In this document: positions 18,910 to 39,622 of the stretch, piece by piece | Position numbering within the stretch: position 1 is the stretch's first letter | How the letters are laid out: each line of letters starts with the position of its first letter | Virus record (IMG/VR): IMGVR_UViG_3300033150_000609 | Coordinates: 1 to 41,073 of that record | Strand: one strand, 5' to 3' | Length of the DNA stretch: 41,073 nucleotides | Origin: a virus | Notes under the pieces: generated by a model | Databases searched by the model: none | Seen by the model: the letters and a program-made list of their open reading frames with translations, nothing else | What the model was told of the DNA's origin: nothing | Translations under genes and position numbers: made by a program

Positions 18910-19458
18910 TTATTTTTCTACCAGATTTTTAATGTATTCACTCGCCCGAAGTTTGCCATACATATTTTTTAACTTCGTAACATAGTTCGGGTCGGTTGCA
19001 TAAAGATATTTTCCTGCGACTAATCCGATAAAATAACTTTCAGGATTTTCCCGGTTCTTAAATGACAAAGGATAGAGCCGTTTAATTAAACTGCCATACC
19101 ATATCAGCGCCTCTGCCAATGTTTCCCAGTCGGCAAAATAAAGATTGACCTTTCTTTTTACACCGCTGATATATTCGTGCGTCGTGATATAGGCAACTTT
19201 TCCAGTCCACATCTTCGGCTTTTTAATCCCGAAATAATTATTCCCGATTGCCTTTTCAAATCCGCCTGTTTCGTGAAAAGCGTGTGTGAAGACAGCCCAG
19301 CGGTTAAAGTTTTCAAAATCGCAAAAAGGGCGCAGGACTTCAAGAAACTTCTTCATCTTTTTCACATCGCAACCGAGGTCGCATTTACAGGGATTTTTAC
19401 CTATCTCAAAAAAGAAAGATAGTATTTTATTAAAGATACTCACAAAAAAGCGTTTCAT
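18910..19458 (-). CDS. Endolysin, glucosaminidase (GH73)-like
   Basis: 182 residues. The catalytic domain (about 45-175) has FTHAFHETGGFEKAIGNNYFGIKKP with catalytic Glu near 63, WTGKVAYITTHEY, YFADWETLAEALIWYGS and GKYLYATDPNYVTKLKNMY, all typical of GH73 lysozyme-like glucosaminidases that cut the glycan of peptidoglycan. The N-terminus (KRFFVSIFNKILSFFFEI) is hydrophobic but weak as a signal; with the holin-like genes upstream it may be released through a pore. It is the last gene of the late region. Confidence 0.87.
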   Translation of the reverse strand: MKRFFVSIFNKILSFFFEIGKNPCKCDLGCDVKKMKKFLEVLRPFCDFENFNRWAVFTHAFHETGGFEKAIGNNYFGIKKPKMWTGKVAYITTHEYISGVKRKVNLYFADWETLAEALIWYGSLIKRLYPLSFKNRENPESYFIGLVAGKYLYATDPNYVTKLKNMYGKLRASEYIKNLVEK

Positions 19459-19965: not shown

Positions 19966-20223
19966 TTATCTCCTTGCTCTCGCTTGTTTTTTAATTCCAA
20001 GAGCACCTTTTATCAGCCCCAAATCCCCCGCAACTACTTCAAATTTTGTGTTTATTTCTTTACGGAAATCTTTCTGCTCTGACTTTACTTCTACAATGTC
20101 AGTTGTATTCCTATTCACTTGTGCCTTTTTATCGCCAATTTTTATAAGAATACCTCCAGTTGCAAGGAGTAAAGTTATAATAATCGCAACAATCCCCGAT
20201 GAACCATTTAATTTTATTTTCAT
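19966..20223 (-). CDS. Single-helix membrane coiled-coil protein (85 aa)
   Basis: 85 residues: N-terminal membrane helix (IVAIIITLLLATGGILIKI about 11-29) then a helical soluble part (VNRNTTDIVEVKSEQKDFRKEINTKF). The layout is like an i-spanin or a small holin of XhlA type. It lies in the lysis cassette between the 114-aa and 59-aa genes. Function inferred from position only. Confidence 0.55.
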   Translation of the reverse strand: MKIKLNGSSGIVAIIITLLLATGGILIKIGDKKAQVNRNTTDIVEVKSEQKDFRKEINTKFEVVAGDLGLIKGALGIKKQARARR

Positions 20224-20564
20224 TGTTTCCTCCTAAATAAATAGATTATCCCGCTGATTAGAATTGCAATAACTCCAGCGACACCGACAAGCCAGCCCCC
20301 CGTTGAGGGGTCTTTTTCTTTTACTTTATATACAGTCCCACTCGTTGATACAATCACGTCTCCCGTTGATAATTCTGTTTTAGTCGTTACAATCACATCC
20401 TCAATTTCAATATCATTTTCAATTATCAGTTGTTCCATTTTCCGGCGTGCAATTTCTTCTGTAATAATTCTTGTTGTTGACCTGCGGGTTTTTTTCAACA
20501 TTACTGCTTTTGCATTACAAACATAACCTAATAACATCAGACAAATAATTATTAATCTTTTCAT
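20220..20564 (-). CDS. Exported protein with C-terminal membrane anchor, spanin candidate (114 aa)
   Basis: 114 residues. A Sec signal (KRLIIICLMLLGYVCNAKA) with a probable signal peptidase I site after AKA; the Cys sits in LGYVC, a poor lipobox. The middle part is helical and basic, then beta (STGDVIVSTSGTVYKV), and a C-terminal membrane helix after GGWL ends in FRRKQ. A periplasmic domain tethered by a C-terminal helix is the layout of u-spanins, which suits the lysis position. The same C-terminus occurs in the 188-aa protein at 22183, which argues for a shared surface-anchor type. Confidence 0.55.
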   Translation of the reverse strand: MKRLIIICLMLLGYVCNAKAVMLKKTRRSTTRIITEEIARRKMEQLIIENDIEIEDVIVTTKTELSTGDVIVSTSGTVYKVKEKDPSTGGWLVGVAGVIAILISGIIYLFRRKQ

Positions 20565-20565
20565 C

Positions 20566-22155
20566 TTATCTGCTCTTAACCATAAAATCGCCGATAGTTA
20601 TAGTTAAATCGTCCCCATCATCTGTCATAATTTTAAGTGCTACTGTATCATTTTGAGATAATCGTATAGTATATGCACAAGATACAGATTCTTTATCCGC
20701 ACCCGGAATGTGTTGTGTATGATAATGCGTCGGGTCTGCGCCATTTTTTGATACACCCCAACTAAAATTCGTTCCAGTTCCGGGGTCAGCGACGGCAGTT
20801 AAGTGATAATGATAGGTCATTAACTTATTTGTTAAAGCCCCTGTATATGTGCAAGTCCCTAATGAATGAGTAAAATCAACCAATTCATCAGCAGTCCATT
20901 CGGTTGTTATTGATGTCCAAACACCGGCATCTAATATTGTCGGTTCATCCGTAGAAAATTCAATAGCAAATAAACTCCCTAAAGTGCCGGTAACTTTTAA
21001 ATCACCTGTAATATCTACGCGAGTTGAAATTGATACTCCTTCATCCGTTTCTGTAATAAATTCAGATACAGCATCATTAAGCACGGTTATAGAACTTATA
21101 TTTTTTGTGATTGCTGCTCCGCTTGTTGATATTGCTAAATTTACATTAGAGAAATTTGTATCTGTATCTGAAATTTCCGCCGCTAACCCAGCGGCACTTG
21201 CAAAATCAGTTGTAGAAATTGCGATTGTGTTATCAGGAAAAACAAATCCCGCCGTGGAGCGAATAAACCCGTAAACATCAAGTTTATATGCAGAATTTGG
21301 TGTGTTTGTTCCTATTCCGATATTGCCATTTGCACCTGATATATTTAATCTATCTATCCAAGTAATATCCCCAACTCTTTGCTGAAGATTAAAATTGTCT
21401 GCATCTACTCTTATTCTCCAGTCATCATCACCAGCCGTTATATCTTCAAACTTAAAATCAGGGTTAGTGTTCTTAAAAATCCCTGAATTTGCCTGTATAT
21501 CATTGTTAATTGTAAGTTTATCATCAAAAGTTTTCGCCCCTCCGATGTTTTGTGCCGTTGTAGTATCCACAAAATGTGCGCTATCTTCTCCGTCAAACTT
21601 TTTGCTGTCGGCGGCTACCCAGTTTGAAGTATCTAAATCTAATTGGTAATTATCGTGTATATTTGTTATTGAACTTTTATTTACAGCGATGTCATCAGCG
21701 TTCACTGTCGCTGAACCTTTTAATATCTCCACATCTATTTGAACAATCGTAATTGAACTTAAAGCAATATTTATATCAGTTCTATTTGTCGCCGAAGAAA
21801 TACCCAGAGCAATATTTGCCAAAATCCGAGCCGCAGTTTCAGCATCTAACGCTACCACCGTTGCATAAATCGTTGCGCCGGATAACAGAACATAGTTTGT
21901 TGCCGCCTGTCCGCCGAGATTATCGGAATCGTGAACTTTTATCGCCCACGCCTGCGTTGTCGTGGCAACATAATAAGTATCACCCGTCGCTGTGTCAATC
22001 TGTTTCCCTAACAGGATGTCAGAACTTTGAGCAATGTAATAAGTATTTCCTGTCCCTGCGTCTGTTATCTGTTTCAAAAACCACGTTCCCGGAGCAGCCG
22101 CAAAACAACTTCCCGCCATCATCAAAAATCCCATACATAATCTTAATTTTTTCAT
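20566..22155 (-). CDS. Secreted-type fibre protein with C1q/TNF-like head (529 aa)
   Basis: 529 residues with a Sec signal peptide (KKLRLCMGFLMMAGSCFA). Residues about 25-175 contain beta-helical or coiled repeats, with ATVNADDIAVNKSSITNIHDNY shared with the 624-aa fibre. About 240-290 carry NGNIGIGTNTP..YKLDVYGFIRS..GFVFPDNT, the fibre module that precedes fibre tips. The C-terminal 130 residues (TEWTADELVDFTHSLGTCTY, SCAYTIRLSQNDTVALKIMT) resemble a jelly-roll C1q-like knob. It would bind receptors or surfaces. Signal peptides are unexpected for virion fibres assembled in the cytoplasm; it may be displayed by the infected cell instead. Confidence 0.7.
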   Translation of the reverse strand: MKKLRLCMGFLMMAGSCFAAAPGTWFLKQITDAGTGNTYYIAQSSDILLGKQIDTATGDTYYVATTTQAWAIKVHDSDNLGGQAATNYVLLSGATIYATVVALDAETAARILANIALGISSATNRTDINIALSSITIVQIDVEILKGSATVNADDIAVNKSSITNIHDNYQLDLDTSNWVAADSKKFDGEDSAHFVDTTTAQNIGGAKTFDDKLTINNDIQANSGIFKNTNPDFKFEDITAGDDDWRIRVDADNFNLQQRVGDITWIDRLNISGANGNIGIGTNTPNSAYKLDVYGFIRSTAGFVFPDNTIAISTTDFASAAGLAAEISDTDTNFSNVNLAISTSGAAITKNISSITVLNDAVSEFITETDEGVSISTRVDITGDLKVTGTLGSLFAIEFSTDEPTILDAGVWTSITTEWTADELVDFTHSLGTCTYTGALTNKLMTYHYHLTAVADPGTGTNFSWGVSKNGADPTHYHTQHIPGADKESVSCAYTIRLSQNDTVALKIMTDDGDDLTITIGDFMVKSR

Positions 22156-22182
22156 CTTCTTTCCTCCCCTGATTTTACCAAT

Positions 22183-22749
22183 TTAATCCTTCTTTTTCAA
22201 GAACGCAAATACACCTATAATAAAAACAACAATTATCCCTGTAATCGCAGTCAACCATCCGCCTTTTACTTCATCATATTTCCCGATTACATAAGTGCTT
22301 CCGTCAATGTAATAAGTTGTGCCTGTTATTAAATTTGTAGAACCACCGACGGTATAAGTTATATTTTCTACAATGTAAGTATCGCCATCTATTATAATTT
22401 CGTCGCCTATGCTTACTTGGTAAATTTCCATCAATTTATTTTTTCTTCTTTTTATCGCACCGCTATAAATAACAGGGGCGTAATTTCTTCCTGCCGCCTT
22501 ATGCCTTGCATATCCTTCTTCACTTAATTCAATGACCGCCAATCTGTCAACCATCGGACTTAATTTTATAACATCATAATCGGTCGTATCCACCGTCAAC
22601 GCAATTCTCATCCTCTCTTTTTCTGTAGAAGCATTTATCGTTTTTACTTTTTTCCACGCAATTTCTGCCGGAGAAAGTTCCTTGACCGTATCCGTAGATG
22701 CTAAAAGGGGTAACGGTAGAAATAAAAAAATAAATAAATACTTAATCAT
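22183..22749 (-). CDS. Exported protein with GGWL-TM anchor (188 aa)
   Basis: 188 residues from MIKYLFIFLFLPLPLLAS, a clear Sec signal. The mature part has a helical AEIAWKKVKTINASTEKERMR section and beta hairpins (SIGDEIIIDGDTYIVENI, TGTTYYIDGSTYVIG), then KGGWL, a membrane helix (AITGIIVVFIIGVFAFL) and KKKD. Same anchor architecture as the 114-aa protein. The ATG overlaps the previous stop. No homologue recognised. Predicted surface- or periplasm-exposed and anchored in the inner membrane. Confidence 0.65.
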   Translation of the reverse strand: MIKYLFIFLFLPLPLLASTDTVKELSPAEIAWKKVKTINASTEKERMRIALTVDTTDYDVIKLSPMVDRLAVIELSEEGYARHKAAGRNYAPVIYSGAIKRRKNKLMEIYQVSIGDEIIIDGDTYIVENITYTVGGSTNLITGTTYYIDGSTYVIGKYDEVKGGWLTAITGIIVVFIIGVFAFLKKKD

Positions 22750-23461
22750 AATATCTTGCCTTTTTATAATACTCTGCTTTAATTTCGTCCGCCGTCCATA
22801 TTCGGTTATAAACTGAAACATCATCTAAAATGCCGGTTTCCCAACTATTACTTCCTGTCCGAGTTCTCGCCCCCATACATTTATGACTGGTGGCATTATC
22901 CGCTATTCCCTGTCCTCCGTCTGTTCCGACTAAAGCGCCATTGGTATAAAACCTTGTATTAGTGCCATCAACAGTCATAACGACAAATGTCCATTGACTT
23001 GCAGGTAAACCTCCCGTTCCATATCGCCAAGCACCATCGTAAAATGTAAGTTCATCAGGATGGTCGCCATCCGCTTGATAAGAAAACCAGAACGCAAGAT
23101 TTTCTGCCGCAAAAAAAGTGCAAAAGGAATTTTCCGCTCCCGCACCATCAAATTTTATCCACGCTGTCATAGTCATCGGGTCTGACAGATTTATATTGGT
23201 CGCTGTTCCAACACCAACAGCGTCAAGGGATTCATTGTCAAAAAGCACAGCATTTCCGAATTTGCCTGTTACAAAAGTTGCGCTGTAAAGTGTTCCTGTG
23301 CTGTAATATGGCGAACTATCCTTTGTGGTAGAGCCGGAACTTTCGTCAAAATGCCATAAACCTTTTAACCCCGAAGCGTTTGAACCTATGGGAACTCTCT
23401 GATTACTTGGTTGCTCGGCAAGAGCCAAACTCGCAAAAAATAAAAATAAAAATATTCTCAT
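22742..23461 (-). CDS. Secreted LamG/concanavalin-like protein (239 aa)
   Basis: 239 residues. Sec signal MRIFLFLFFASLALAEQ, then a LamG-type jelly roll (about 30-230) with LWHFDESSGSTTKDSS, GNAVLFDNESLD, MTAWIKFDG, WTFVVMTVDG, TRFYTNGALVGT and ILDDVSVYNRIWTADEI, the full set of the family. It probably binds glycans. The ATG overlaps the fibre stop. A phage LamG protein with an export signal suggests display on or release from the host surface, or a host-acquired adhesin. Confidence 0.82.
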   Translation of the reverse strand: MRIFLFLFFASLALAEQPSNQRVPIGSNASGLKGLWHFDESSGSTTKDSSPYYSTGTLYSATFVTGKFGNAVLFDNESLDAVGVGTATNINLSDPMTMTAWIKFDGAGAENSFCTFFAAENLAFWFSYQADGDHPDELTFYDGAWRYGTGGLPASQWTFVVMTVDGTNTRFYTNGALVGTDGGQGIADNATSHKCMGARTRTGSNSWETGILDDVSVYNRIWTADEIKAEYYKKARYYD

Positions 23462-25332
23462 TGTGCTATAAACCCCAGCATTAACATAATCGGGTCTCCT
23501 CCGGGCGTCGTTGCGGCAATACTTGGACAGTCAAGTCGTATCGTGCTATAACTCGGTATTGCTGTTATATCAAAATCGCCGGTAGTTATTTTTTTATATC
23601 TTCCGCTTGAAATAAACAAAGTTGAGGACGAAACTATTGTCTGCCAAGAACCCGAACCGTCTGTCGTTGAGGAAAGCATTAAATCATAACCGTCAATTCC
23701 AACTGACGCTGTGCCGTCTTTACCATAATTCACGGTAACTGTCGTCAATGTTACGGCGAATGAAGGCATTTGAATATATCCCATTCCGTCGGTTACATAG
23801 GCGTTGCAAGGGAACTCTCCTGATTTAGAATAATAAACTACCCCTGCTCCATTACCCCCTGTATCTTCTTCCCAGTTCCAGTCACTTTCGCCATCATCAA
23901 ATTTCAAAATGTAATTATCTGTTCCCGCATTAGTATTATCTATAGGATAACCGGCTAAAGTTGAGGAAGATGCTAATGTATTCGTTGACGCCGCAAACTC
24001 TGTCGCTGTAACTAATGGGTCAGTCGCCCCTTTCACTACATAATCACAATATCCTTTTGTTGAAACATCATCAACATTTGTCGGCGAGGTTGAAATATTT
24101 GTAAATAAATTATCCTCAAGGTCTCTATCAGAATTTCCCCACTCTATATTCACTATCGGATTACTGCTCATATCCACACCTGCGCCTGCATCATCCTTAT
24201 CAACAATTTTTAACATTTTCCCATTCCATAAACTAACAAACAAATCTTGTTCAATGACCTTTTTATTGTGAATACTACAAATCTCCATTATTTCTCCAGC
24301 GACAACATCCAAACCGCCAAGACCGTGTATGTAGTTATCACCTAAATCTATCGCTGTTCCACTAACAGGTTTAATACTATTAGTTTTCAAAATTCCGGCT
24401 ACACTTAAATTCCCGCTTATAATAGCATTACTTGAAATTGTAACTTCCTTTTCAAAAGTATGCCCCCCTGTCCAAGTCGGTGAACTGTCTTTCCTTGCGT
24501 AATTGTCGTGTATTGCGGTCAAGGAACTTTTATTTACTGCAATATCGTCGGCATTTGCGGTTGCTGAACTTTCCAGAATTGTTATATCATCGGCATTCAC
24601 CGTAATTGAACTTTCCACTACATCCATTTCTTCATTTAATATCGTTAACGAACTTATAATAATATTTTGAGAACTTACAACATTTGTCCAATTATCCGCA
24701 TTGATTGTAATTGAAGCATAAACCACAATCATTTTATCGTTAAGAATACCCTGTGAACTAACCACCACCGCAAGCCCGTCGGTATTTATAGTAACGGAAC
24801 TTTCTAATACAGAAACAGCGTCGGCGTTTATTGTAACCGAACCTTTTAATACTGCCACATCCGATTGAAGAATAGTCGTAGAACTATTTAATATCGCTTG
24901 AGAACTTATCAGTATTTCTATGTTATCAGAATTTGCCGTCGCCGAACTTTCTAAAACTGATATATCTCCCTGAAGGATTGTAACGGAACTTTGAAGAATT
25001 GTAACTGAACTTCGTAAAATAATAATACCAGCACTGCCTGTCGTCGTTGCTTTTTCTATCATATAATCACAATATCCCTTTGTTGAAGCGTCTCCTATAT
25101 TCTTCGGCGAGGTTGAAACATTTACTATTTTGTTATCGTTCATACTTATTCCGTTAGATGATATTTTAGCACCGTAGTTTGATTTCGCTGTCGTTGTAGA
25201 ATCACCAAAAGAATACGAACCTGAAATATACTTTTCCTGTTGCCAAGTTACTGTGCTATCTTCAACTTCTGCGAATTTTCCCGCCCATAAACTCCCCGCT
25301 ATAAACAATCCTAAAATTATATTTCTTTTCAC
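23458..25332 (-). CDS. Coiled-coil repeat fibre with signal peptide (624 aa)
   Basis: 624 residues, GTG start with GAGGGGGTAAT. A Sec signal (MKRNIILGLFIAGSLWA) is followed by about 270 residues of short repeats (VTILQSS, INADAVSVLESS, ADDIAVNKSSLTAIH), giving a long trimeric-like coiled rod. Then a middle beta part, a repeated module STKGYCDY (near residues 70 and 410), and a C-terminal beta domain (PSYSTIRLDCPSIAATTPGGDPI). It probably serves adhesion. It shares segments with the 529-aa fibre, so both likely arose by duplication. Confidence 0.7.
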   Translation of the reverse strand: MKRNIILGLFIAGSLWAGKFAEVEDSTVTWQQEKYISGSYSFGDSTTTAKSNYGAKISSNGISMNDNKIVNVSTSPKNIGDASTKGYCDYMIEKATTTGSAGIIILRSSVTILQSSVTILQGDISVLESSATANSDNIEILISSQAILNSSTTILQSDVAVLKGSVTINADAVSVLESSVTINTDGLAVVVSSQGILNDKMIVVYASITINADNWTNVVSSQNIIISSLTILNEEMDVVESSITVNADDITILESSATANADDIAVNKSSLTAIHDNYARKDSSPTWTGGHTFEKEVTISSNAIISGNLSVAGILKTNSIKPVSGTAIDLGDNYIHGLGGLDVVAGEIMEICSIHNKKVIEQDLFVSLWNGKMLKIVDKDDAGAGVDMSSNPIVNIEWGNSDRDLEDNLFTNISTSPTNVDDVSTKGYCDYVVKGATDPLVTATEFAASTNTLASSSTLAGYPIDNTNAGTDNYILKFDDGESDWNWEEDTGGNGAGVVYYSKSGEFPCNAYVTDGMGYIQMPSFAVTLTTVTVNYGKDGTASVGIDGYDLMLSSTTDGSGSWQTIVSSSTLFISSGRYKKITTGDFDITAIPSYSTIRLDCPSIAATTPGGDPIMLMLGFIAQ

Positions 25333-25342
25333 ATTACCCCCT

Positions 25343-25600
25343 CTATACTCCTAATGACTGCCATTTTGAGCCATTCCACCATTCTATATGCACTGAAGTA
25401 GTATTTATTCCTATCGTTCCAACTTCTGGCGACACAGGTCTTCCTGTCATTGTCCAATTCGGAAGCCGGAAACCGTCATAAGTTCCATTCACAATTTTAT
25501 CAAGAATCGTCATCATCCGAACTGCGTTCAATTCCTTTTTATCGTCAGGGTCTTTCGGCGGGTTTTTATTTTCTATTCTATCATCACTCGGTATTTCCAT
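25343..25600 (-). CDS. Small tail-region protein (85 aa)
   Basis: 85 residues with an acidic Pro/Asp-rich N-terminus and a C-terminal VGTIGINTTSVHIEWWNGSKWQSLG, a pattern close to small fibre-tip or fibre-adaptor motifs (G-x-I-x-x-x-T-x-x-x-x-x-W-x-G-x-W). GGGGGAGC precedes the ATG. It lies between the tail hub and the secreted fibres. It may be a tail-fibre connector. Confidence 0.6.
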   Translation of the reverse strand: MEIPSDDRIENKNPPKDPDDKKELNAVRMMTILDKIVNGTYDGFRLPNWTMTGRPVSPEVGTIGINTTSVHIEWWNGSKWQSLGV

Positions 25601-25611
25601 TGCTCCCCCTT

Positions 25612-28600
25612 TTAACCATATCTCGCCCCTCCCCAGTAATACGGTGTCCCGCCGTCAGTCGTTCCCCATTTAACCGGCTCGCCCGCAACTCTTTCCTCCC
25701 AGTAGAGAGGGTTATAATATATTGATAAATCCAATTCAATACATTTAGGTTTCGTTTTCTTTTCCCTTATATCGTGAGAAATTTCAAGCACCTGATAAAA
25801 TCTTGTAATATCCAATTCATCGTCTTCTAATTTTATGACATTATCCAAATCCATTGTCGGACAATAAGGTAAAGTCATTTCCCTGCGAACTCCCACTATT
25901 ATTTTTGACAATACCCTGTAAATCTTGTTAGCAGTATCCTGCGACAAAAAGGAATCCGACAAATATTTATTTTCAATCTGCAAAGTTTCTATTCCCTCGC
26001 CCACCGAATATATCCTGCCGGATGTTTGCGTCCACTCTTTTCCCTCTATAAAATATTCTGTGATATTCGTATTGCTTACGCCAGTGATTAAAACCTGCGG
26101 GCTGATAGGATGGCGTGTAAAATTTACTATTATCCCGCCATAAGTGCTTTCTCCTTCGGGGTAATAATGCCCGTTGATTTTCAATTTATAAGCAGCGTCC
26201 ACTTCAACAGGTTTTTCAAAGACGACATTATAATTATAACTTTTCCCTGTTTCCGCCATCCATCCAATATCCCCGTCCCAAATTTTAGCACTCACGTTCA
26301 ATATAAAGGGATTCGCTTTTATCTCCACTTTTGAATATTTTATTTTCTCGCCCTTATCTTCATTCGCAAAAGATATAGGAATTTCCTCTATATTCGCCGA
26401 TGAAAAACTCCAGTCAATTTTCTTAAATCTTGCAGTCCCGATTCCCGTTGCCCAGAAAAAATATGCACTTGATAAAGCAATATCTCCATAAACCAGACCG
26501 GAACTTTCAAAAACAACCTTCCATTGAAAATATCTTTTTGCTGTTGAATTGATAGTTCCGTCATCGTTGATTAACTCCCAGCCATCCCAATCTATTTCAT
26601 TATCAGATGTCCTTGTGTATGTTTTGATAATCAGATTATCAAAAAGATAGCAATCTATATTTAGAACCCCCGAATGAAAAATATCTGTATTAAGGTCTTT
26701 TGTCGGCGAGGTTATATTTATCGGCACAAAATTTGCAGGACTTTCTACAAAAACAAATCCCGGTGCAACAGGATTCCACTCTATCGCAAACATCAAATTT
26801 TCTGTCTGGTCTGGTAAATGTTTTCCCATTGCGACCCTTCTTACCTGACAATTTGTATTATAAGATAATCCCATTACCGTTGATTTTTCAACTGTCCAAT
26901 CGTCATCGTGGTCGGAAATGTGTCCAGTATAAGAAATCTCATTTCTTACTAAATGATTAAAAGACCCTTTCGCTCTCGGAATAAAAAGACAAAGTTTTTT
27001 ACCTGAACCGTCCACACCAGAACCGACAAATCCGGGGCTTGTTGACCAATCCTTATCTTCGCTGTCAATTTCAAAAAATCCCCATTCCATATCGTGGGTT
27101 GACCAGTAATAAATTCTCGTTGTATTGTCATCTCCTCGTGAAAAAACAACTATTGCATTTGCATCCCCAATATCACCCGATTCTATTATATGAAAATCCT
27201 TTAATAGCGGCTGAAAATAAGCGTCTGTTATTTTACTGTGAAAAAGCCAGTCATCGGGGGCATTACGATAATAAAAATACCAAGTATTTACAATCCTAAA
27301 AATAATAAACGCTTTATCACCATATCCGATTAAAACTTTTGCATCCCCTATAACCCCACTTTTTACTATTTCATAAGAGCCAGCGGCAACACTTATTTTC
27401 CCCCAGTAAAGTTTATCTGTATCAATGTTAGAAAAATCAAAGTATGCAAAATCGCTACTATCCACATCTATATTTAATTCATTCCAACCAGTTGTTTCAC
27501 CCGGAAACCATTCTTCTTCCCTGAAACCTGTTTGACCACCAGTTTCGTTATATGTTCTTAAATAAATTCTGTGAAACTTTTCAAGATAATCTTCTTGTTC
27601 GGTAAAATATACGACAAAAATCTTATTGTTTTTGTATATTGCATCAAAACGACCAAACAATATTCCAGCAGGTAAAGTTTGTTCTACTATCTGCGTCCAC
27701 GCCCCTGTCGGGGTTTTTCTATAAATTCTATACTTTTGTATCCCGAACCCTTTTATCACCCCTGCAACAAAAAGATTATAATCTCCACTCCCAAGAAATA
27801 TAGAAAACTGGTCTTCTACAAAATCAGCAGGCAGAGTAGAGGGTTGCAAACTATAAAACGGCTTTACTTTATTATCTATTATTTCTGTGTTTATAAATGT
27901 GGCTGTCGCCCACGCAGTATCGTCGGGCATATACCATTTATGAGGATTACTATAAACTTCCCAATGCAGAATATTGTGATTATCAATAAACAAACTTACA
28001 TCACCAAGACCTTTTGAAATTTCGTTCATCTCATCCCATATCGGACTGTTTACAGGGTAGAACATCTGCACGGTTCTTTCCGTTTCAAAAAGCGAAACCT
28101 CGTCGGCGGAAATACCCGCTTCCAAAGCCATCCATTCAATCAGCCATTCCCTATTTTTATCTTTCAGCGTTTCAATTCCCAGAAAAACTTTTGTATCTTT
28201 CAAAACCTTAATCCTGTCTTTGACTTTGAACTCTATCCTTTTCTTTCTCTTAAAAATCGTCCAGTCAAAAACCCAGAAATGTCCCTGTATATCCCACAAG
28301 TCAACGCCCTGCTTATTCAACCCACCGTAAATCCTTGCAGGCATTTCGGGAATATTATCTTTATCTATATTTTTGAACTTTCCTTTATGCGGATAAAATT
28401 CTTCCGTCGCCGCAATTTGCGTTCCCTTCCCGATTGAAGAATGAAAAATACCGAGAATATTATCTCTTTTTTTATTGAGGTCAAACCGCAGAAAATCATT
28501 CAGTTCTATACTTTCCCAAACTTCAATCTGGCATAATCTCACAGGTGTTGCAACTTCCGCTGGATGTATCCTAACCCCATAAGCAGAAACCCCAGCCAAA

Positions 28601-29073
28601 TCTATAAAACTATTGTAAGTATTTTCATTATTTATAACACTACCATTCACAATAGTTGTTGCTGTTTGCCCTATTTCCAAACTTCTATCTTGTAATCCAT
28701 TCCATCTCACCCATCCTGTTGGAAGTCCATCGGTTTGAGTTGTCGCATAATAAATAAAAAAATCAGCAGCCACATTACCAGATATAGCCCCGACCAGTGT
28801 TGATTTCGGATACCAGAATATATTTAATCGGTTTATAGTTTTTAATCCACTGAAAGCAAGATGAAGATTAAATTCACTATCTTCTGTTTCAAAATAATGT
28901 GCCTGACCTGATGAATCTATATGCGCCCTATGCCCGTCGGTTATAACTTCTGCATCAAGATTAAGAACATCGTCAATATAAACAGCCGAACCCTTCGCTA
29001 CGTTCTGCAAGTCCAGTTCCATTTTGCAAATCGGCTGTCCTTCTCCAGAATCATAAATTTCTTTTATCGTCAT
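25612..29073 (-). CDS. Tail hub/host-attachment protein with discoidin-like domain (1153 aa)
   Basis: 1153 residues, the largest gene. Its start overlaps the previous stop. Residues about 20-180 have a galactose-binding/discoidin-like sandwich (LHLAFSGLKTINRLNIFWYP, TGWVRWNGL, YGVRIHPAEVATPVRLCQIEVWE). About 190-400 look like a siphovirus tail hub (ARIYGGLNKQGVDLWDI, FEFKVKDRIKVLKD, WDEMNEISKGLGDVSLFID). A large beta-propeller-like middle (many W-YYR and FIFR stretches) and a final part (VKLEDDELDITRFYQVLEISHD) follow. It caps the tail and probably binds sugars on the host surface. Domain calls are from motifs. Confidence 0.72.
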   Translation of the reverse strand: MTIKEIYDSGEGQPICKMELDLQNVAKGSAVYIDDVLNLDAEVITDGHRAHIDSSGQAHYFETEDSEFNLHLAFSGLKTINRLNIFWYPKSTLVGAISGNVAADFFIYYATTQTDGLPTGWVRWNGLQDRSLEIGQTATTIVNGSVINNENTYNSFIDLAGVSAYGVRIHPAEVATPVRLCQIEVWESIELNDFLRFDLNKKRDNILGIFHSSIGKGTQIAATEEFYPHKGKFKNIDKDNIPEMPARIYGGLNKQGVDLWDIQGHFWVFDWTIFKRKKRIEFKVKDRIKVLKDTKVFLGIETLKDKNREWLIEWMALEAGISADEVSLFETERTVQMFYPVNSPIWDEMNEISKGLGDVSLFIDNHNILHWEVYSNPHKWYMPDDTAWATATFINTEIIDNKVKPFYSLQPSTLPADFVEDQFSIFLGSGDYNLFVAGVIKGFGIQKYRIYRKTPTGAWTQIVEQTLPAGILFGRFDAIYKNNKIFVVYFTEQEDYLEKFHRIYLRTYNETGGQTGFREEEWFPGETTGWNELNIDVDSSDFAYFDFSNIDTDKLYWGKISVAAGSYEIVKSGVIGDAKVLIGYGDKAFIIFRIVNTWYFYYRNAPDDWLFHSKITDAYFQPLLKDFHIIESGDIGDANAIVVFSRGDDNTTRIYYWSTHDMEWGFFEIDSEDKDWSTSPGFVGSGVDGSGKKLCLFIPRAKGSFNHLVRNEISYTGHISDHDDDWTVEKSTVMGLSYNTNCQVRRVAMGKHLPDQTENLMFAIEWNPVAPGFVFVESPANFVPINITSPTKDLNTDIFHSGVLNIDCYLFDNLIIKTYTRTSDNEIDWDGWELINDDGTINSTAKRYFQWKVVFESSGLVYGDIALSSAYFFWATGIGTARFKKIDWSFSSANIEEIPISFANEDKGEKIKYSKVEIKANPFILNVSAKIWDGDIGWMAETGKSYNYNVVFEKPVEVDAAYKLKINGHYYPEGESTYGGIIVNFTRHPISPQVLITGVSNTNITEYFIEGKEWTQTSGRIYSVGEGIETLQIENKYLSDSFLSQDTANKIYRVLSKIIVGVRREMTLPYCPTMDLDNVIKLEDDELDITRFYQVLEISHDIREKKTKPKCIELDLSIYYNPLYWEERVAGEPVKWGTTDGGTPYYWGGARYG

Positions 29074-29660
29074 ATTCCTGTTAATGTGAAACCTAAAGAC
29101 CAAATCTCTATTTTCTTCGGGTCTAAAGGTTCAATAAAAGTTTCTTTCACACTTCCTTTCCAGCCCTTGTAATTATACGAAACAATAACTGCCTGATTCG
29201 CACCTTCATCCGGCAAAGAAGTTCCAAGAGTGATAAGATATGTTTCCTCATCAAAACTTCCGCCTGTATAATAATTTGTCCCTAACGGCGCAGAAGCCAG
29301 AACCACACTTGTAATTGTGATAAATCTTTTTGAAGTCGGCATAATTTTTACACTTGTTCTGCTTATGCTCGTTCTATCTTCCTTTTCTTCTTCGCCGGTT
29401 TCAAATGCTTGTAAAAATATCAAATCACTTTTCATTAAATTATACTGCAATTCATTTTTAACTGCCGTTGACATTTCCGAACATAAAACTTCTATTATAT
29501 CCACTTTTTTATCTAAAGATACTTTTTTAAGATACCCTCTCACATCCCTTGTTTCCGTGCAAAGTTCTATCGGGTTAATGCGAAAAACGCTTACCATTCT
29601 CCCCACTGTAAAAAGATTATCCCTATCAATCCCGATTTTGAAATTACCTAACCATTTCAC
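29070..29660 (-). CDS. Distal tail protein (196 aa)
   Basis: 196 residues, GTG start with GGAGAGAAG, its GTGA overlapping the tape-measure stop. A compact beta protein: NFKIGIDRDNLFTVGRMV, FRINPIELCTETRDV, KSDLIFLQAFETGE, with PTSKRFITITSVVLAS later. Position between tape measure and tail hub is where Dit-like proteins sit, connecting tube and tip. Assignment rests on position. Confidence 0.6.
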   Translation of the reverse strand: MKWLGNFKIGIDRDNLFTVGRMVSVFRINPIELCTETRDVRGYLKKVSLDKKVDIIEVLCSEMSTAVKNELQYNLMKSDLIFLQAFETGEEEKEDRTSISRTSVKIMPTSKRFITITSVVLASAPLGTNYYTGGSFDEETYLITLGTSLPDEGANQAVIVSYNYKGWKGSVKETFIEPLDPKKIEIWSLGFTLTGI

Positions 29661-31831
29661 CTTCTCTCCTCAAATTGCGATATTGTTTTTATTTTTTGTG
29701 ATATTTTTTCCCAATGACTTTCACTTATTGAATCAGGGTCTAATGCCTGTAATATTACAGTTATTGACGGTGACGCTTTGCTATTCAATATCTTTTTTGT
29801 TTCAGGAGCAGGGATTACATCAGAACCACGAGGCAGGTTGACAAGTTCACCGCCGACAGTTCCTTCGCCGACCAAAGCCACACCACCGCCGAAATTCTTT
29901 ACCCCGTGCTGAAATCCCATAAATTTACCTACTGCCCCTCCGCCAAGTCCAAACCCAGCAGTTAATACCTGAAATGTTATCCACTTCGCCATCATTTGAG
30001 CAATCATATTTACAACATACCGTCGTATATCATCCCAGATATTTTTAATTGCGGCTGATGCCTTTCCACCTTCCAATATAAATTGAGCCATAGAACCCGA
30101 CCACGCTGACGCAAGAGAATTTGAAAATGCCTGAAATCTTGCCTGCCTATTCGCCTGTTCTCTTGCTTCATACGTTACATATTCATCGTGCATTGCCTTA
30201 ATCCCCATTTGATATTCCTGATAACCTGCAAGTTCTGTTGCCTGATATTCCATATCATCAAGAAGCATTTGTTCATTAAGCCGTTGGCGTTCCGCTATTT
30301 TTACATCTGTTTCATTTTTTGCTATTTCAATTCTTTGTTCCGCTAATTGTTTTTCGTAAAAAGTAATTGCTTTCGTCATCCGATTTATGTTTTCCGCCGC
30401 CAGTAATGCTTCATCCCCTCTGATTCTTCCTGCTTCCAAGTTCGCAGAAATTTCATCCCGTTCTTTTTTAAGTAATTCAATTCTCAATTCAAGAGAAGCC
30501 CTTGCCGCTTTTTGCTGTTCCAGATAAGATGTTGCCATTGCAAGATTTTTGTCAATAATTTTACCCGCTACATCTAACGCTACTTTTCCTAAAAGAGCAA
30601 TCGCTGTTGTTATTGCTACAATCGGGGATATTGCCAACACTTTATTTAATCCTATAAAAGCGCCTTTCATTTTCATAACCGCTAAATATCCCACGCCGAG
30701 AACAGTTCCAATACCAGTAACAGCAAAAACCATTTTCCCTAATCCGATAATCGCAATTTTTGTCCCCTCATCCATACTCAAAATTGCCTTTGCAAAATTC
30801 GTAGCAGTTATCACACCTTTATTCCATTCAGGCATAAGTTTTTCACCTAAATCAATCCAGAGTGCATTTATTGTCTGCTTGAATTTATCGCCTATTATTT
30901 TTGAACTATCCATAATTGTTGCAAATGCTTCGTTTGTTGCCCCTGTTCTTTTTGTCATTAAATCCAAATCTTCCATAAATCCTTCCGTATTCTGTAACAT
31001 TGCACTCATACCAGCCAACGCCCTGATATTCGGAAAGATTGAAGCCCGTTGCGCTTCCGTTGCATTCGTCAATTTTTTCATAACCCCGCCGAGACCTTCT
31101 GTCCTCAATGTATTTGCACTTAATTCAATACCAAATTCTGCCGCAACTTTTTCTGCTTCTTTCGTAGGTTTTAGAAATGATACCGTTATTCCCCGGAGCG
31201 CTGTTATCGCTTCCTGTGTCTGTAATCCCGCCCTTGTCATTGTTGCCAGCGATGCCCCCATTTCATTCAGAGATAGCCCTGAACTCGCTGCTAAACTCGC
31301 TACACGCCCTATTGACGGAGCAAGCGCCCCCATCGTCGTTTTCCCTCTTTTTACAATCGCAAAAAGTAAATCAGAAACATCCGATGCCTGCTCCGCAGAA
31401 AGAGCATAACTATTTATTATCGTTGTCAATGCATCTGTCGCTACCGCTGTATCGGTTACGCCCGCCTTTGCCAGTTTTGTTGATGCAGTCAAAACGTCTA
31501 TTGCCTTTGAAGCGTCAATACCCGCCGAGAGAATATCGTAAAGACCACGCTGGAGTTTATCAACCGGCTCTCCGAACTCCGTCATCATTTTTTTCATAGC
31601 GGAGGAAAATTCGGGAAGTTTTTTCTTGCCGGTTGCGTCTAACATCGTGGCGACTTCTTTCATTCCTATTTCAAATTTAGAAGCCATACTAACCGCTTTT
31701 TTACCGACAAGTAATAACGCACCAGAAATAACGCCTAATCCCAGAGTTGCTTGTTGAATGGATTTATCCCAGTCCGCAGTTCCAAGAACCATATCCCCAC
31801 GAACTGTTCCTACCTTAAATTCTCCCGCCAT
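29657..31831 (-). CDS. Tail tape measure protein (724 aa)
   Basis: 724 residues. N-terminal helical part (about 1-180), with SLNEMGASLATMTRAGLQTQEAITALRGI around residue 195-225, the conserved TIGR01760 tape measure block. Hydrophobic helices follow at about 350-420 (GLGKMVFAVTGIGTVLGVGYLAV, SPIVAITTAIALLGKVAL). The C-terminal helical arms end in ALVGEGTVGGELVNLPRGSDVIPAPET, a recurrent tape measure tail. It sets tail length; 724 residues predict a tail near 100 nm. It follows the frameshift chaperone by one base. Confidence 0.9.
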   Translation of the reverse strand: MAGEFKVGTVRGDMVLGTADWDKSIQQATLGLGVISGALLLVGKKAVSMASKFEIGMKEVATMLDATGKKKLPEFSSAMKKMMTEFGEPVDKLQRGLYDILSAGIDASKAIDVLTASTKLAKAGVTDTAVATDALTTIINSYALSAEQASDVSDLLFAIVKRGKTTMGALAPSIGRVASLAASSGLSLNEMGASLATMTRAGLQTQEAITALRGITVSFLKPTKEAEKVAAEFGIELSANTLRTEGLGGVMKKLTNATEAQRASIFPNIRALAGMSAMLQNTEGFMEDLDLMTKRTGATNEAFATIMDSSKIIGDKFKQTINALWIDLGEKLMPEWNKGVITATNFAKAILSMDEGTKIAIIGLGKMVFAVTGIGTVLGVGYLAVMKMKGAFIGLNKVLAISPIVAITTAIALLGKVALDVAGKIIDKNLAMATSYLEQQKAARASLELRIELLKKERDEISANLEAGRIRGDEALLAAENINRMTKAITFYEKQLAEQRIEIAKNETDVKIAERQRLNEQMLLDDMEYQATELAGYQEYQMGIKAMHDEYVTYEAREQANRQARFQAFSNSLASAWSGSMAQFILEGGKASAAIKNIWDDIRRYVVNMIAQMMAKWITFQVLTAGFGLGGGAVGKFMGFQHGVKNFGGGVALVGEGTVGGELVNLPRGSDVIPAPETKKILNSKASPSITVILQALDPDSISESHWEKISQKIKTISQFEERR

Positions 31832-35682: not shown

Positions 35683-36210
35683 TTACTCCTTTATCAGTAA
35701 ACCTATTCCATATTGAACCCCATCCTGCCACATATTAAAAGTTATACACGGATATTGTTTTGAAATTTCTTTCCAAAATCTTCCAATTCTGTTATTCTGT
35801 TTCGGGTAAGTATCTATATCGTGAAATACAATAATATTCTTCGTTAACAAACCGTATATTTCGTATTCCAGTTTTGCATCTTCGTAAAAATGCAGTGCAT
35901 CAATAAAAAGAAGATTTATTTTTTTCCCATTAAGCATTTTTTTCAACATTTCTAATGTTTCCCGTTTGTGTATATCCCCTTGTATATCCGAATATCCATT
36001 CTTATCAATCCCGATATGCCTTGCGCTTAATAATTGTTCATAGAATTTCTTCTGCCGGTTTTGATATGTTCCCAGTTCCACAATAACAGGATTTTCTATA
36101 TCCCTGTTTTTGAAATACCCTTCTATAAATTCAAGAAATAATTTCCATTCCCACGGGTTCTGCATAGGTTGTCCCTCTTTCATCAAGGCATTAAATAATT
36201 CAATGTTCAT
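35683..36210 (-). CDS. Class I methyltransferase, CmcI/Methyltransf_24-like (175 aa)
   Basis: 175 residues from MNIELFNALM (ATG overlaps the epimerase stop). SAM-binding region VIVELGTYQNRQ, then GIDKNGYSDIQGDIH, LLFIDALHFYEDAKLEYE (the FIDA acidic motif) and IIVFHDIDTYPK. It could O-methylate the sugar made by the neighbouring enzymes. It closes the carbohydrate cassette. Confidence 0.72.
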   Translation of the reverse strand: MNIELFNALMKEGQPMQNPWEWKLFLEFIEGYFKNRDIENPVIVELGTYQNRQKKFYEQLLSARHIGIDKNGYSDIQGDIHKRETLEMLKKMLNGKKINLLFIDALHFYEDAKLEYEIYGLLTKNIIVFHDIDTYPKQNNRIGRFWKEISKQYPCITFNMWQDGVQYGIGLLIKE

Positions 36211-37208
36211 ATCGTTTTTGCCTTCCACGTTTCCGGCGTTTTATCATTTATAATTTCCACTTCCAAATGATAATCAAAGGGCTTGCTACCCCTTTCCTTA
36301 ATCCAATCTATCATCTTTTTTATGCCATTCTTTAAAGTATATTGTGTTTCATAACCGAGCATCTCTCGTGCTTTATCAGATGAACAAGTTGCATATTTTA
36401 CTTCCTGTTCCCGTGCAGGCACATAAATAGGATATAAATCAAAGTTCAATAATTCTGCTATCAATACCGCCAAATCGTTTACCGCTACAAACTGTTCATC
36501 CGAACCTACGTTGATTATTTCGCCAACTATATTTTTTTGAGTTGCCATTTTACTTAATGGATTTATGCAGTCCTGCACGAATACGAAACATCTTTTCTGT
36601 TCTCCATTCCCGTAAATTATCGGCTGCTTTCCCTGTAACATTCTATTTATAAATATGCTCGCCACATTCCTAAAAGGGTCATCATATTTTTGCCTCTGTC
36701 CAATAATGTTATGCGGGACTGCAATTACATATTCAAATCCGTGAACCCCAGCCATAACTTCAACCAATTTTTCACTCGCTACTTTTGAAATAGCATAAGG
36801 GTCTTGCGGTTTCGGTTTCATATCTTCCGTGAAAGGAACTGCATTTTCACCGTATCTCGCCATTGACGAAAGGAAAATAAAACGCTTACCCCTGTTCTGA
36901 ATAAATGCGGATAATACCGTTGATGTCGCCTGATAAATTGATTTATTAACTACGCTCGGAGAGAAAACGCTCAATCCTTCGTGAGCATACGCCGCACAAT
37001 GATACAGCACGTCCACATTTTTTATTATTTTTTGCATATCCTTCAAGTTCGTGCAGTCGGCAAAATAACATCTTGCGCCTTTCGGGACGTTTTCTGTATA
37101 TCCCCCTGTCAAATTATCACATCCCTCTACTTCGTATCCCAGAGCAAGCATAGCGTCCGCCAAATGACTACCTAAAAAACCCGCAATACCTGTTATAAAA
37201 ACTTTCAT
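36207..37208 (-). CDS. NAD-dependent sugar epimerase/dehydratase (SDR)
   Basis: 333 residues from MKVFITG (ATG overlaps GT2 stop). Rossmann motif TGIAGFLGSH (about 6-15), DNL after the second strand, catalytic SS (114-115) and YAISK (Tyr 138, Lys 142). It contains the GDP/UDP/dTDP-sugar type region NIIGQRQKYDDPFRNVASIFINRMLQG. It interconverts or dehydrates a nucleotide sugar. The complete catalytic set suggests an active enzyme. Located among glycosyltransferases in the capsid operon. Confidence 0.87.
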   Translation of the reverse strand: MKVFITGIAGFLGSHLADAMLALGYEVEGCDNLTGGYTENVPKGARCYFADCTNLKDMQKIIKNVDVLYHCAAYAHEGLSVFSPSVVNKSIYQATSTVLSAFIQNRGKRFIFLSSMARYGENAVPFTEDMKPKPQDPYAISKVASEKLVEVMAGVHGFEYVIAVPHNIIGQRQKYDDPFRNVASIFINRMLQGKQPIIYGNGEQKRCFVFVQDCINPLSKMATQKNIVGEIINVGSDEQFVAVNDLAVLIAELLNFDLYPIYVPAREQEVKYATCSSDKAREMLGYETQYTLKNGIKKMIDWIKERGSKPFDYHLEVEIINDKTPETWKAKTI

Positions 37209-37828
37209 CTTAATTTCCTTGAATCCCTGCCCCATAAAAGACCATCCGCTTTTCTTTCACGCCAAATCTGTAAATCTGAACTTGAATTTTGTTTCCTTGA
37301 ATTTATATGTGTATCATCCATTTCATTTTTGAAAAGTGCGGGATGATAATGCGTAACTTTTGCATCTTCCCCGTATTTGAATTTATTTATGCTTTCCGCA
37401 AAGGTTTGCAATTCTGCGTCTGCGTGAAAAATCTTGTAATCAGGGCAGAAGCATCGCCTTTCAGGAAACCTATCCGCAAACTTTCTTCCGACCAATCCAA
37501 CGCCGCCCTTGCGCCCCTGTTCCATATTACTTTGATTTAATGTAACCATTCCGTCGGTATCAGGGAAATTATCAACCATACATTTAACTGCCTTTTCTAT
37601 ACAATCAGGGAAAAGTTTAATATCATCATTTAACCAGAATATAATATCCGCTGTTGAAGTCCTGATATATTTATTCCAGATACCGAAAACAAACAGCCGG
37701 TTATAATCAGATTCAATAAAAATCCTGTAAAAAGTAGTTTTCAAATAACTGTTATCCAAAATAGAACAGAGGCATCTTTTTAATTTCTGTTCTCGTTTGT
37801 AAGTTGCTATCACAATGTCAATCTTCAT
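37205..37828 (-). CDS. Glycosyltransferase family 2-like (207 aa)
   Basis: 207 residues: MKIDIVIATYKREQKLKRCL (donor-site start), ADIIFWLNDDIKLFPDCIEKAV (D-D acidic pair) and a C-terminal helical part. The GT-A fold is truncated compared with typical 250-300 aa GT2 enzymes but keeps both donor motifs. Its ATG overlaps the DUF115-GT stop by 11 bases. It transfers a sugar, probably on to a virion or cell glycan. Confidence 0.75.
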   Translation of the reverse strand: MKIDIVIATYKREQKLKRCLCSILDNSYLKTTFYRIFIESDYNRLFVFGIWNKYIRTSTADIIFWLNDDIKLFPDCIEKAVKCMVDNFPDTDGMVTLNQSNMEQGRKGGVGLVGRKFADRFPERRCFCPDYKIFHADAELQTFAESINKFKYGEDAKVTHYHPALFKNEMDDTHINSRKQNSSSDLQIWRERKADGLLWGRDSRKLR

Positions 37829-39218
37829 TTTTTAATCTCCTGCTTGCCTGAAAAAGTTCTACTGTCGGCTCGCCTGCCGCTTTCATCAAATCAAAAATCT
37901 GCGAATAAGAAGCGTCAAATTCTTCCAGTGTAATTTCGTTCTTTGCGACCATTTCTTTTAAGACCTCTCCGAAATTAACTTCCTCACCGCAATCATAATG
38001 TTCTGTATTTTTATTTCTTGCAATCCATTTATCCAGAAAGTGTTTTGTTCTTTGATTATTTTTCAGGTATATTACCGCATTCCCGTATTGTTTTTTCGTG
38101 CTGTTCCGATATTTAGACCAGTCAATAATATGTATTCCAATATCCGCCTTGAAATTATTAAACCTGTCAGGATATTTCTGTATTACAGCGTCGGAATCAA
38201 GCCACGCAATATCCCGTCCCCAGTGCTTATCCAGCATTTCCCGCATAAAAACTGCTTTATGATAAGTATTTGTTTGCCAATCACCTTTTGATTTTACTCC
38301 CTGTAAATCATATTCAAAACCGAATTTTTTAATTGACCTTTCAAGATTTTTTATTTCCTTTTCATAGCCGGTATTTTCCGTGTAGAATGATACAATTATC
38401 GGTCTTGTAATTTTTTCAATATCTTTTGTCTTTCCAAACTCAAAACATTTCAAAGCACTTGTCTCACTTAAATTTACCACCCTGAAACCCCTGTCCTGTA
38501 TTTCAACGGACGCCCTTTCAAAATTCTCAATCATATGTTCAAAAATACTTTCCCCTTGATTTAACGGGTATCCGTCGTGCCACCATACCTGTTTACCGTT
38601 CCCATCGCCCTTCATATCGTATCCTAAAAGATAAATGGGGTTTGCGCCTAAACACATAGCCAGATTTAACGCCGCATAGCCGGAATTTGAACCGTGCCCG
38701 ATTCCGTCTTTGAGCGATGATGTCAACATTTTTTCACCGGCGCTATCCACCTGATAAACAGCGTTAGGGTATCTGTATCTGAAAAAATTAAGCCATACCT
38801 TGAACCCTTTATAATCTTCAAACTTTTTTTGCACATCTTCACCCAAAGCACCCTGTATAATCCATTCGTAAAATCTTGAATCCGTTGAAAATAAAATTGA
38901 CGGTGAGATTTTCATAAAGGACATATTTACCCCGATTGTCAATTCACCTTTCAGTATTCTCCAGTCAAAACCTTTCAAACTCTTGCCCCCACCGACAATA
39001 AAACATCGCTGTCCTTTCCATATATTATCCGCTATAAAATCCGCAAAATTATTCGGACTATCTTTCGTAATAATATCCCGCCTGTTATTCATCATATCTG
39101 ACATTAACCTCAATTCTGCCCAGTTTGCCGCCACATCGGACATTTTAATACATTCATCGGGTTTGCTTTTTTTCTCTCTGCCCCTTTCCGCCAAGTCGGA
39201 CATATTTATTATACCCAT
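37818..39218 (-). CDS. MptE/DUF115-like domain fused to a glycosyltransferase (466 aa)
   Basis: 466 residues, two domains. About 70-255 is the MptE/DUF115 fold (RCFIVGGGKSLKGFDW, GHGSNSGYAALNLAMCLGANPIYLLGYDM, WHDGYPLN), found in pterin enzymes and in glycan-building proteins. About 270-460 is a nucleotide-sugar transferase (IIVSFYTENTGYEKEIKNL, GRDIAWLDSDAVI with D-S-D, CGEEVNFGEVLKEM). The pairing with GT2, epimerase and methyltransferase shows a sugar-transfer role. Acceptor unknown. Confidence 0.78.
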   Translation of the reverse strand: MGIINMSDLAERGREKKSKPDECIKMSDVAANWAELRLMSDMMNNRRDIITKDSPNNFADFIADNIWKGQRCFIVGGGKSLKGFDWRILKGELTIGVNMSFMKISPSILFSTDSRFYEWIIQGALGEDVQKKFEDYKGFKVWLNFFRYRYPNAVYQVDSAGEKMLTSSLKDGIGHGSNSGYAALNLAMCLGANPIYLLGYDMKGDGNGKQVWWHDGYPLNQGESIFEHMIENFERASVEIQDRGFRVVNLSETSALKCFEFGKTKDIEKITRPIIVSFYTENTGYEKEIKNLERSIKKFGFEYDLQGVKSKGDWQTNTYHKAVFMREMLDKHWGRDIAWLDSDAVIQKYPDRFNNFKADIGIHIIDWSKYRNSTKKQYGNAVIYLKNNQRTKHFLDKWIARNKNTEHYDCGEEVNFGEVLKEMVAKNEITLEEFDASYSQIFDLMKAAGEPTVELFQASRRLKNED

Positions 39219-39622
39219 TATTTTATGCCGCCCTGCGTTTTCCTTTCAATATCATTCTCATCCAAAAATGCCTGATAAATTTCAATGCACTGAACATCTG
39301 ACTTCGCTTCAAATTTATGCAAAACCCCGCACGGAACTTCCATTACCCCGCCTGCCTGTAATTCTGTTTTATCTTCAATACCGCTATTAAAGATAGAGAC
39401 GATTAAAATCCCTGAAATGATATAAAAAAGATTAACCTTGTTTTTATGTTTATGTTCCGAGCAGTAACCGCCCTTTTTTATATCAAGGTAATGAACCGAG
39501 ACCGCATCATTGCTGTAAATCTTTGTTGTCTCTCCCCAGATTTTTCCCTGCTTATCTATAAGCATTATTGTATTCCCTGCGTGGAGAAGGGCAGAACGCT
39601 CATAACGCTTGCCCCTCTCCAC
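39218..39622 (-). CDS. Cupin-fold protein (134 aa)
   Basis: 134 residues. Cupin barrel with metal-site residues EHKHK (about 56-60), YIISGILIVSIF and PCGVLHKFEA. Cupins of this size in sugar cassettes are epimerases or isomerases of nucleotide sugars, or binders. GTG at 39622 is used; an ATG 19 codons downstream with AGGG is an alternative. First gene of the cassette, 16 bases behind the capsid gene. Confidence 0.75.
   Translation of the reverse strand: MERGKRYERSALLHAGNTIMLIDKQGKIWGETTKIYSNDAVSVHYLDIKKGGYCSEHKHKNKVNLFYIISGILIVSIFNSGIEDKTELQAGGVMEVPCGVLHKFEAKSDVQCIEIYQAFLDENDIERKTQGGIK

Follow-up and report, generated by a model that had tools for sequence, protein, structure and literature searches.

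Five adjoining genes in the fibre region of an uncultured phage encode proteins with predicted Sec signal peptides

Introduction

The cytoplasm is taken to be the place where phage fibres fold and are joined to the virion. What, then, would a phage do with five successive proteins of its fibre region that each begin like an exported protein? The question is raised by IMG/VR virus record IMGVR_UViG_3300033150_000609, a single record of 41,073 bases that was analyzed over its whole length (the window) and in which all of the curated genes used lie on the minus strand. Matches to PHROG families, including the terminase (3091-4797), minor head genes, and the tape measure (29657-31831), together with the gene order, suggest a phage with a long noncontractile tail. 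Between the tail hub gene and the lysis cassette, five successive genes occupy positions 20220-25332 (the block; Table 1). A first-pass annotation of this DNA had read them as proteins of 624, 239, 188, 529, and 114 amino acids (aa) with a signal on each, and had proposed that they are exported to the host envelope.

Results

Signal peptides are predicted for all five block proteins

The open reading frames (ORFs) of the five genes were confirmed, and all five products were called signal bearing by a rule-based script, which looks for a basic n-region, a hydrophobic core of 8 to 16 residues, and small residues at −3/−1. As listed in Table 1, their N termini show the n/h/c-type organization, the predicted −1 residue being Ala in every case, and, judged by sequence, are of the canonical Sec/signal peptidase I type. 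A strict lipobox was absent from all five; the signal of the 529-aa protein agrees with a lax lipoprotein pattern (alternative at Cys17) but not with the strict one. The script recovered all five E. coli signals used for validation (OmpA, MalE, PhoA, LamB, and Bla). It is nevertheless imperfect, since its lambda hits were Lom, Bor, Rz, and RexB, of which Rz and RexB are membrane proteins rather than cleaved exports, and the Cor lipoprotein of N15 escaped it at the score in use.

Among the 53 curated ORFs of the window, signals were called for five of five in the block versus 2 of the other 48, namely, the Rossmann-fold start of an epimerase (a false positive) and the adjoining 85-aa protein with an N-terminal transmembrane segment (TM). 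The hypergeometric P value for the five chosen genes all being positive is 7e-6, which is indicative only, as the block was treated as fixed beforehand. On these counts, chance hydrophobicity was rejected as an explanation of the block. The control phages gave 4 (lambda), 1 (N15), 1 (B40-8), 0 (THSA-485A), 1 (MACPNOA1), and 2 (P2559Y) calls, and the longest run of signal-bearing genes was two in the five of these six genomes for which runs were counted. The same test found no signal in the fibre or hub genes of lambda, N15, B40-8, CRP-345, and P2559Y. In published work, SignalP predicted 0 to 2 signals per genome in five rumen phages (PMC5723332).

Hydrophobic N termini may have other roles, and since the calls came from a rule-based test, these segments could belong to virion proteins and act on membranes or in assembly rather than as Sec signals. 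Yet all five combine a basic start, a hydrophobic core, and small −3/−1 residues, these features are kept in diverged homologues (see below), and no such segment is present in the fibre genes of lambda, N15, B40-8, and CRP-345. We consider the non-Sec interpretation unlikely and export of the five products highly probable on sequence grounds.

The genes are tightly packed. Overlaps of 4 to 8 nucleotides (nt) join the 624-aa gene to the LamG gene, the LamG gene to the 188-aa gene, and the 114-aa gene to the following 85-aa gene, while the 529- and 114-aa genes are 1 base apart and the 188- and 529-aa genes 27 nt apart. Because nearly all of its genes touch or overlap, the block reads as part of a late operon that runs into the lysis genes.

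Table 1 Features of the block and its surroundings in the window
Feature	Coordinates	Strand	Details
624-aa fibre-like protein	23458..25332	-	GTG start; ORF reading
Predicted signal peptide, 624-aa protein	25282..25332	-	17 aa, LWA/GK cleavage; MKRNIILGLFIAGSLWA / GK
239-aa LamG/concanavalin-like protein with signal peptide	22742..23461	-	Pfam PF13385, E=8e-20
Predicted signal peptide, 239-aa protein	23417..23461	-	15 aa, ALA/EQ cleavage; MRIFLFLFFASLALA / EQ
188-aa protein	22183..22749	-	ATG at 22749; longest ORF, from 22824, is 213 aa
Predicted signal peptide, 188-aa protein			Cleavage MIKYLFIFLFLPLPLLA / ST
C-terminal TM anchor, 188-aa protein	22198..22254	-	Residues 166-184; hydropathy 2.76
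529-aa fibre protein	20566..22155	-	Weak phrog_972 match
Predicted signal peptide, 529-aa protein	22099..22155	-	19 aa, CFA/AA cleavage; MKKLRLCMGFLMMAGSCFA / AA
C1q/TNF-like knob (as modeled), 529-aa protein	20572..20958	-	Residues about 400-528; AlphaFold and Foldseek
114-aa protein	20220..20564	-	Signal peptide, short ectodomain, C-terminal TM, RRKQ tail
Predicted signal peptide, 114-aa protein			Cleavage MKRLIIICLMLLGYVCNAKA / VM
C-terminal TM anchor, 114-aa protein	20235..20291	-	Residues 92-110
85-aa protein, N-terminal TM and coil	19966..20223	-	Overlaps the 114-aa gene by 4 nt
Endolysin (glucosaminidase)	18910..19458	-	No export signal; PF01832, E=5.5e-11; phrog_3513
85-aa putative baseplate-type protein	25343..25600	-	Signal absent; lies between the hub gene and the block; phrog_1325 (no known function), E=3.5e-9
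1163-aa tail hub protein	25612..29103	-	No signal; phrog_3475 minor tail protein; after the tape measure gene
Hub hypervariable domain	26764..27816	-	Residues ~430-780; identity to relative

The signals are retained in a close relative

The first-pass annotation had called for a search of related phages for the same genes, and the close relative IMGVR_UViG_3300033145_001026 (L002) was found to carry the block complete, with the five genes in the same order and a signal on each. In the 624/577 and 529/315 pairs (window/L002), the signals are identical without any nucleotide change and the first modules are conserved, and the proteins then diverge distally to 28% and 48% identity. Signal identity is 40% for the LamG proteins, 55% for the 114/116 pair (mature part, 80 to 91%), and 29% for the 188/237 pair, a value that reflects a poor end alignment, so that these two signals are better called unrelated in sequence. 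All of them still score as signals, as would be expected if the property and not the sequence were selected. Retention under divergence agrees with the original view that the signals are, by sequence, real.

In a distant record, IMGVR_UViG_3300031578_000177 (terminase identity of about 50%), the major capsid gene is immediately followed by a run of three signal-bearing genes (L013:3919-6669), which code for proteins of 143, about 130, and 610 aa, the last one fibre-like. IMG/VR searches with the hub, the terminase, the 529-aa N terminus, the 114- and 188-aa proteins, the distant major capsid protein, and the 610-aa fibre yielded one block-bearing contig only; apart from it, they matched a short contig with a terminase gene (L005) and, more distantly, three further terminases. 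No relatives of the fibre, LamG, or 188-aa proteins were found in cultured phages, and besides the LamG domain and the weak fibre match of the 529-aa protein, the block proteins showed no family or cultured-phage homologue.

Two proteins have a fibre-like modular layout

Behind its signal peptide, the 624-aa protein has a conserved N-terminal module of ~60 aa, a coiled/beta shaft that includes two STKGYCDY-type repeats, and a variable distal part. It had no Pfam, PHROG, or NCBIfam match, and we call it fibre-like from its sequence pattern and layout. The 529-aa protein consists of a signal peptide, a conserved N-terminal stretch of 130 aa, a shaft, and a C-terminal knob, and it weakly matches phrog_972 (tail fibre proximal subunit; E=3.8e-8). 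Its AlphaFold model has a mean predicted local distance difference test (pLDDT) score of 37.5 overall, and only its one reasonably predicted part, the C-terminal block at about 55 to 84, was used. With this part, Foldseek retrieved the phi812 spike knob, the CBD of the cyanophage A-1(L) fibre, and C1q domains at a probability of 1.00, with moderate TM-scores and with many viral models among the matches. The C terminus is thus modeled as a knob of the C1q/TNF-like kind, a fold that occurs at the tips of phage fibres.

The A-1(L) short fibre and the phi812 spike knob are like the 529-aa protein in this fold and in the fibre-like modular layout. The cultured-phage fibre genes that were checked, a set that leaves out the C1q-knobbed fibres themselves, carry no signal, unlike those of the block. 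A conserved N terminus followed by an exchanged distal head, the layout of tail fibres, was found in both the 624- and the 529-aa pairs; tail fibres are, however, taken to be cytoplasmic proteins free of export signals, and here a signal is predicted in both phages.

The other three are a LamG protein and two putatively anchored proteins

The 239-aa protein matches PF13385 (Laminin_G_3) with 72 bits against a gathering score of 27.6, and its L002 homologue scores 64 bits. The annotation had spoken of LamG, coiled-coil, and anchored proteins, and these were named correctly. It had also suggested that host-type surface proteins were acquired. Such proteins, of bacterial origin, could serve the host or cell-cell adhesion as conversion (moron) genes. 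LamG and signal-plus-fibre architectures occur in bacterial surface proteins too, and the LamG protein weakly matches an S-layer protein structure (4qvs) and a fimbrial protein. But the block is packed in a late operon and has the same gene order in both phages, a host homologue was not identified, and no integrase or repressor was recognized among 39 window proteins compared with PHROGs, a marginal Cox-like match (E=0.004) aside. The acquisition claim thus found no support, and a role in host benefit appears improbable.

The 188-aa protein is composed of a signal peptide, a variable ectodomain, a conserved beta stem, and a C-terminal GGW-TM-KKKD anchor; in its structure model, which is of low confidence, only the helix at residues 160 to 187 was predicted better. 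The GGW-TM-basic C terminus is common to the 188- and 114-aa proteins and adds a detail to the earlier description of the two. This suggests an anchor module that was duplicated and that carries an exchangeable ectodomain. A signal peptide followed by a stop-transfer segment leaves the ectodomain outside and the tail inside the membrane, and the sequences predict this topology, with an inside basic tail, for both proteins. Sortase anchoring was rejected: the TM and the basic tail are present, but no LPXTG motif was seen in the 114-aa protein by eye, and its match to an NCBIfam LPXTG model was below the cutoff (E=0.044).

The same topology, a signal plus a C-terminal TM, is that of single-protein spanins, and the 114-aa gene directly precedes the TM/lysis genes. 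The 114-aa protein, and perhaps the 188-aa one, could therefore be a spanin-like lysis linker, which would leave only three surface proteins. The lipobox needed for the outer membrane is, however, absent from the 114- and 188-type proteins of either phage. The 114-aa protein was on this ground rejected as a lipobox spanin in spite of its C-terminal TM, and we regard the linker role as very improbable.

The tail hub has a hypervariable domain of its own

Residues ~430 to 780 of the hub show 21 to 42% identity to the relative, and the rest of the protein mostly 73 to 100%. This hypervariable domain is a candidate for the virion's own receptor-binding module. Since it is part of a signal-less hub, the virion would have its own candidate adsorption module. 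Both the fibre heads and the hub domain have changed between the window phage and L002.

Surrounding genes and terminase relatives

The 85-aa gene that the 114-aa gene overlaps begins the lysis-type genes; its product is holin- or spanin-like by shape, and its position points to such a function. Position likewise suggests a baseplate-type role for the 85-aa protein encoded between the hub and the block. Farther away, between capsid-type and minor-head genes (35683-39622), lie a cupin gene, a gene for a 466-aa sialyltransferase-like/nucleotide-sugar transferase, a GT2 glycosyltransferase gene, an NAD-dependent epimerase gene, and a methyltransferase-like gene. This glycan gene set, unusual in a head operon, is also present in the relative (L017).

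Terminase homologues were found at 54 loci across many phyla, with a best identity of 44%, and gave no host assignment. Four phage-like regions with this terminase family (L077, L080, L081, and L092), examined in full, contained no convincing signal-bearing fibres. A GC-rich prophage-like region encodes a 277-aa signal-bearing PKD-domain protein downstream of its tail genes (L089:1610-2443). In several Elusimicrobiota genomes (L082, L083, L084, L111, L112, and L114 to L117), homologues of the terminase large subunit sit in ordinary chromosomal surroundings of metabolic genes and genes for outer-membrane and pilin-like proteins; on the side that was examined, downstream of them, no phage genes were seen. 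This terminase is possibly domesticated.

Discussion

We propose, at about even odds, that the block is an exported, partly membrane-anchored cassette that acts on the envelope of the infected cell. In this model, the products of this part of the late operon would cross the membrane via Sec during infection. The 188- and 114-aa proteins would be held in the cytoplasmic membrane by their C-terminal TMs, ectodomain outside, and the LamG protein and the 624- and 529-aa fibres would be released to the periplasm or cell surface, possibly docking on the anchored pair. The exchangeable C-terminal heads would attach to sugars on the surface or to the receptor that the phage itself uses, and the infected-cell surface, masked or altered in this way, might exclude other phages and keep progeny off the dying cell or its debris. 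Export to the host envelope, as the first-pass annotation had it, would follow from the anatomy of the proteins. The diverged yet retained signals, the shared anchor, the conserved N termini, the knob, the signal-less hub, the position, and the packing all speak for this proposal.

An action on the envelope is favored by likeness to known systems in gene position. In T5, llp immediately follows the gene of pb5, and the genes of siphophage exclusion proteins immediately follow that of gpJ (PMC9586334); the cor cassette of T1-like phages is small, with two predicted membrane proteins (PMC13164509). In the gene order of N15, cor has the corresponding position, and in lambda, lom is found between J and the side-fibre gene. 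Only a single 85-aa gene separates the block from the 1163-aa hub gene upstream, and, like Cor/Llp of T5, T1, and N15, the block would supply exported phage proteins downstream of a tail-tip/receptor-binding gene. In position and predicted export, it thus resembles an exclusion cassette. Cor and Llp, however, are single small lipoproteins, the N15 companions having no signals, whereas the block has five signal-bearing proteins, two of them large and fibre-like and two TM anchored. Lambda Lom also carries a signal but is a single 206-aa outer-membrane protein without fibre or LamG modules. A run of exports in this place had been called odd at first; the number of signals and the fibre architecture remain so, but exports in this position are less odd, given the precedents of llp, cor, and lom. 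Because a strict lipobox and recognized homology are absent, we do not file the block under the Cor/Llp family.

Other phages display or export proteins in different ways. PblA and PblB of Streptococcus phage SM1 are phage-encoded adhesins displayed on the host surface, as proposed for the block products, but they are different proteins, and holin and lysin activity is needed for their expression on the surface (PMC2920869). Lys44 of fOg44, an exported endolysin, is made late by its phage and carries a Sec signal (PMC6116005). In that case the lytic enzyme carries the signal, whereas in the window the endolysin does not and the fibres do.

Several points weigh against the envelope-cassette proposal. 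No known exclusion protein is similar to any of the five, and in contrast to the small lipoproteins named above, they reach 624 aa and are mostly not lipoproteins. Their export, cleavage, and location are predicted from sequence. Conservation comes from one close relative, and because the 624- and 529-aa signals show no nucleotide change in it, their conservation is uninformative. Furthermore, head exchange behind conserved N termini is typical of virion fibres, too.

This last point leads to the possibility that the products are genuine fibres of the virion whose maturation takes place outside the cytoplasm: they would be exported, would fold in the periplasm or at the surface, perhaps with disulfides, and would be attached to tails at lysis. 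The conserved docking-type N-terminal modules, changed distal parts, C1q-like knob, and position after the hub are consistent with it, as is the distant relative's 610-aa fibre-like signal-bearing protein, encoded in a structural region beside two smaller ones; it accounts for the exchanged heads as well as the exported cassette does. But two membrane-anchored members would not reach virions, the hub already has a variable domain, and literature searches found no precedent in tailed phages; we know of no exported virion fibre in any of them. We regard late attachment, the main alternative, as less likely. More tentatively than for the cassette, we suggest that trimeric receptor-binding fibres leave the cytoplasm through Sec before they fold and are then either exposed on the infected cell or taken up by virions at lysis. 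A Sec route for tail-fibre-type proteins would be novel, as none is described in the literature found.

An entire fibre-region block with conserved export signals would imply that fibre modules serve phages as weapons or shields at the cell surface, or else that some tails are completed outside the cell. The meaning of a "tail fibre" annotation in uncultured phages would then change, and receptor-binding predictions would include proteins that are perhaps never on the particle.

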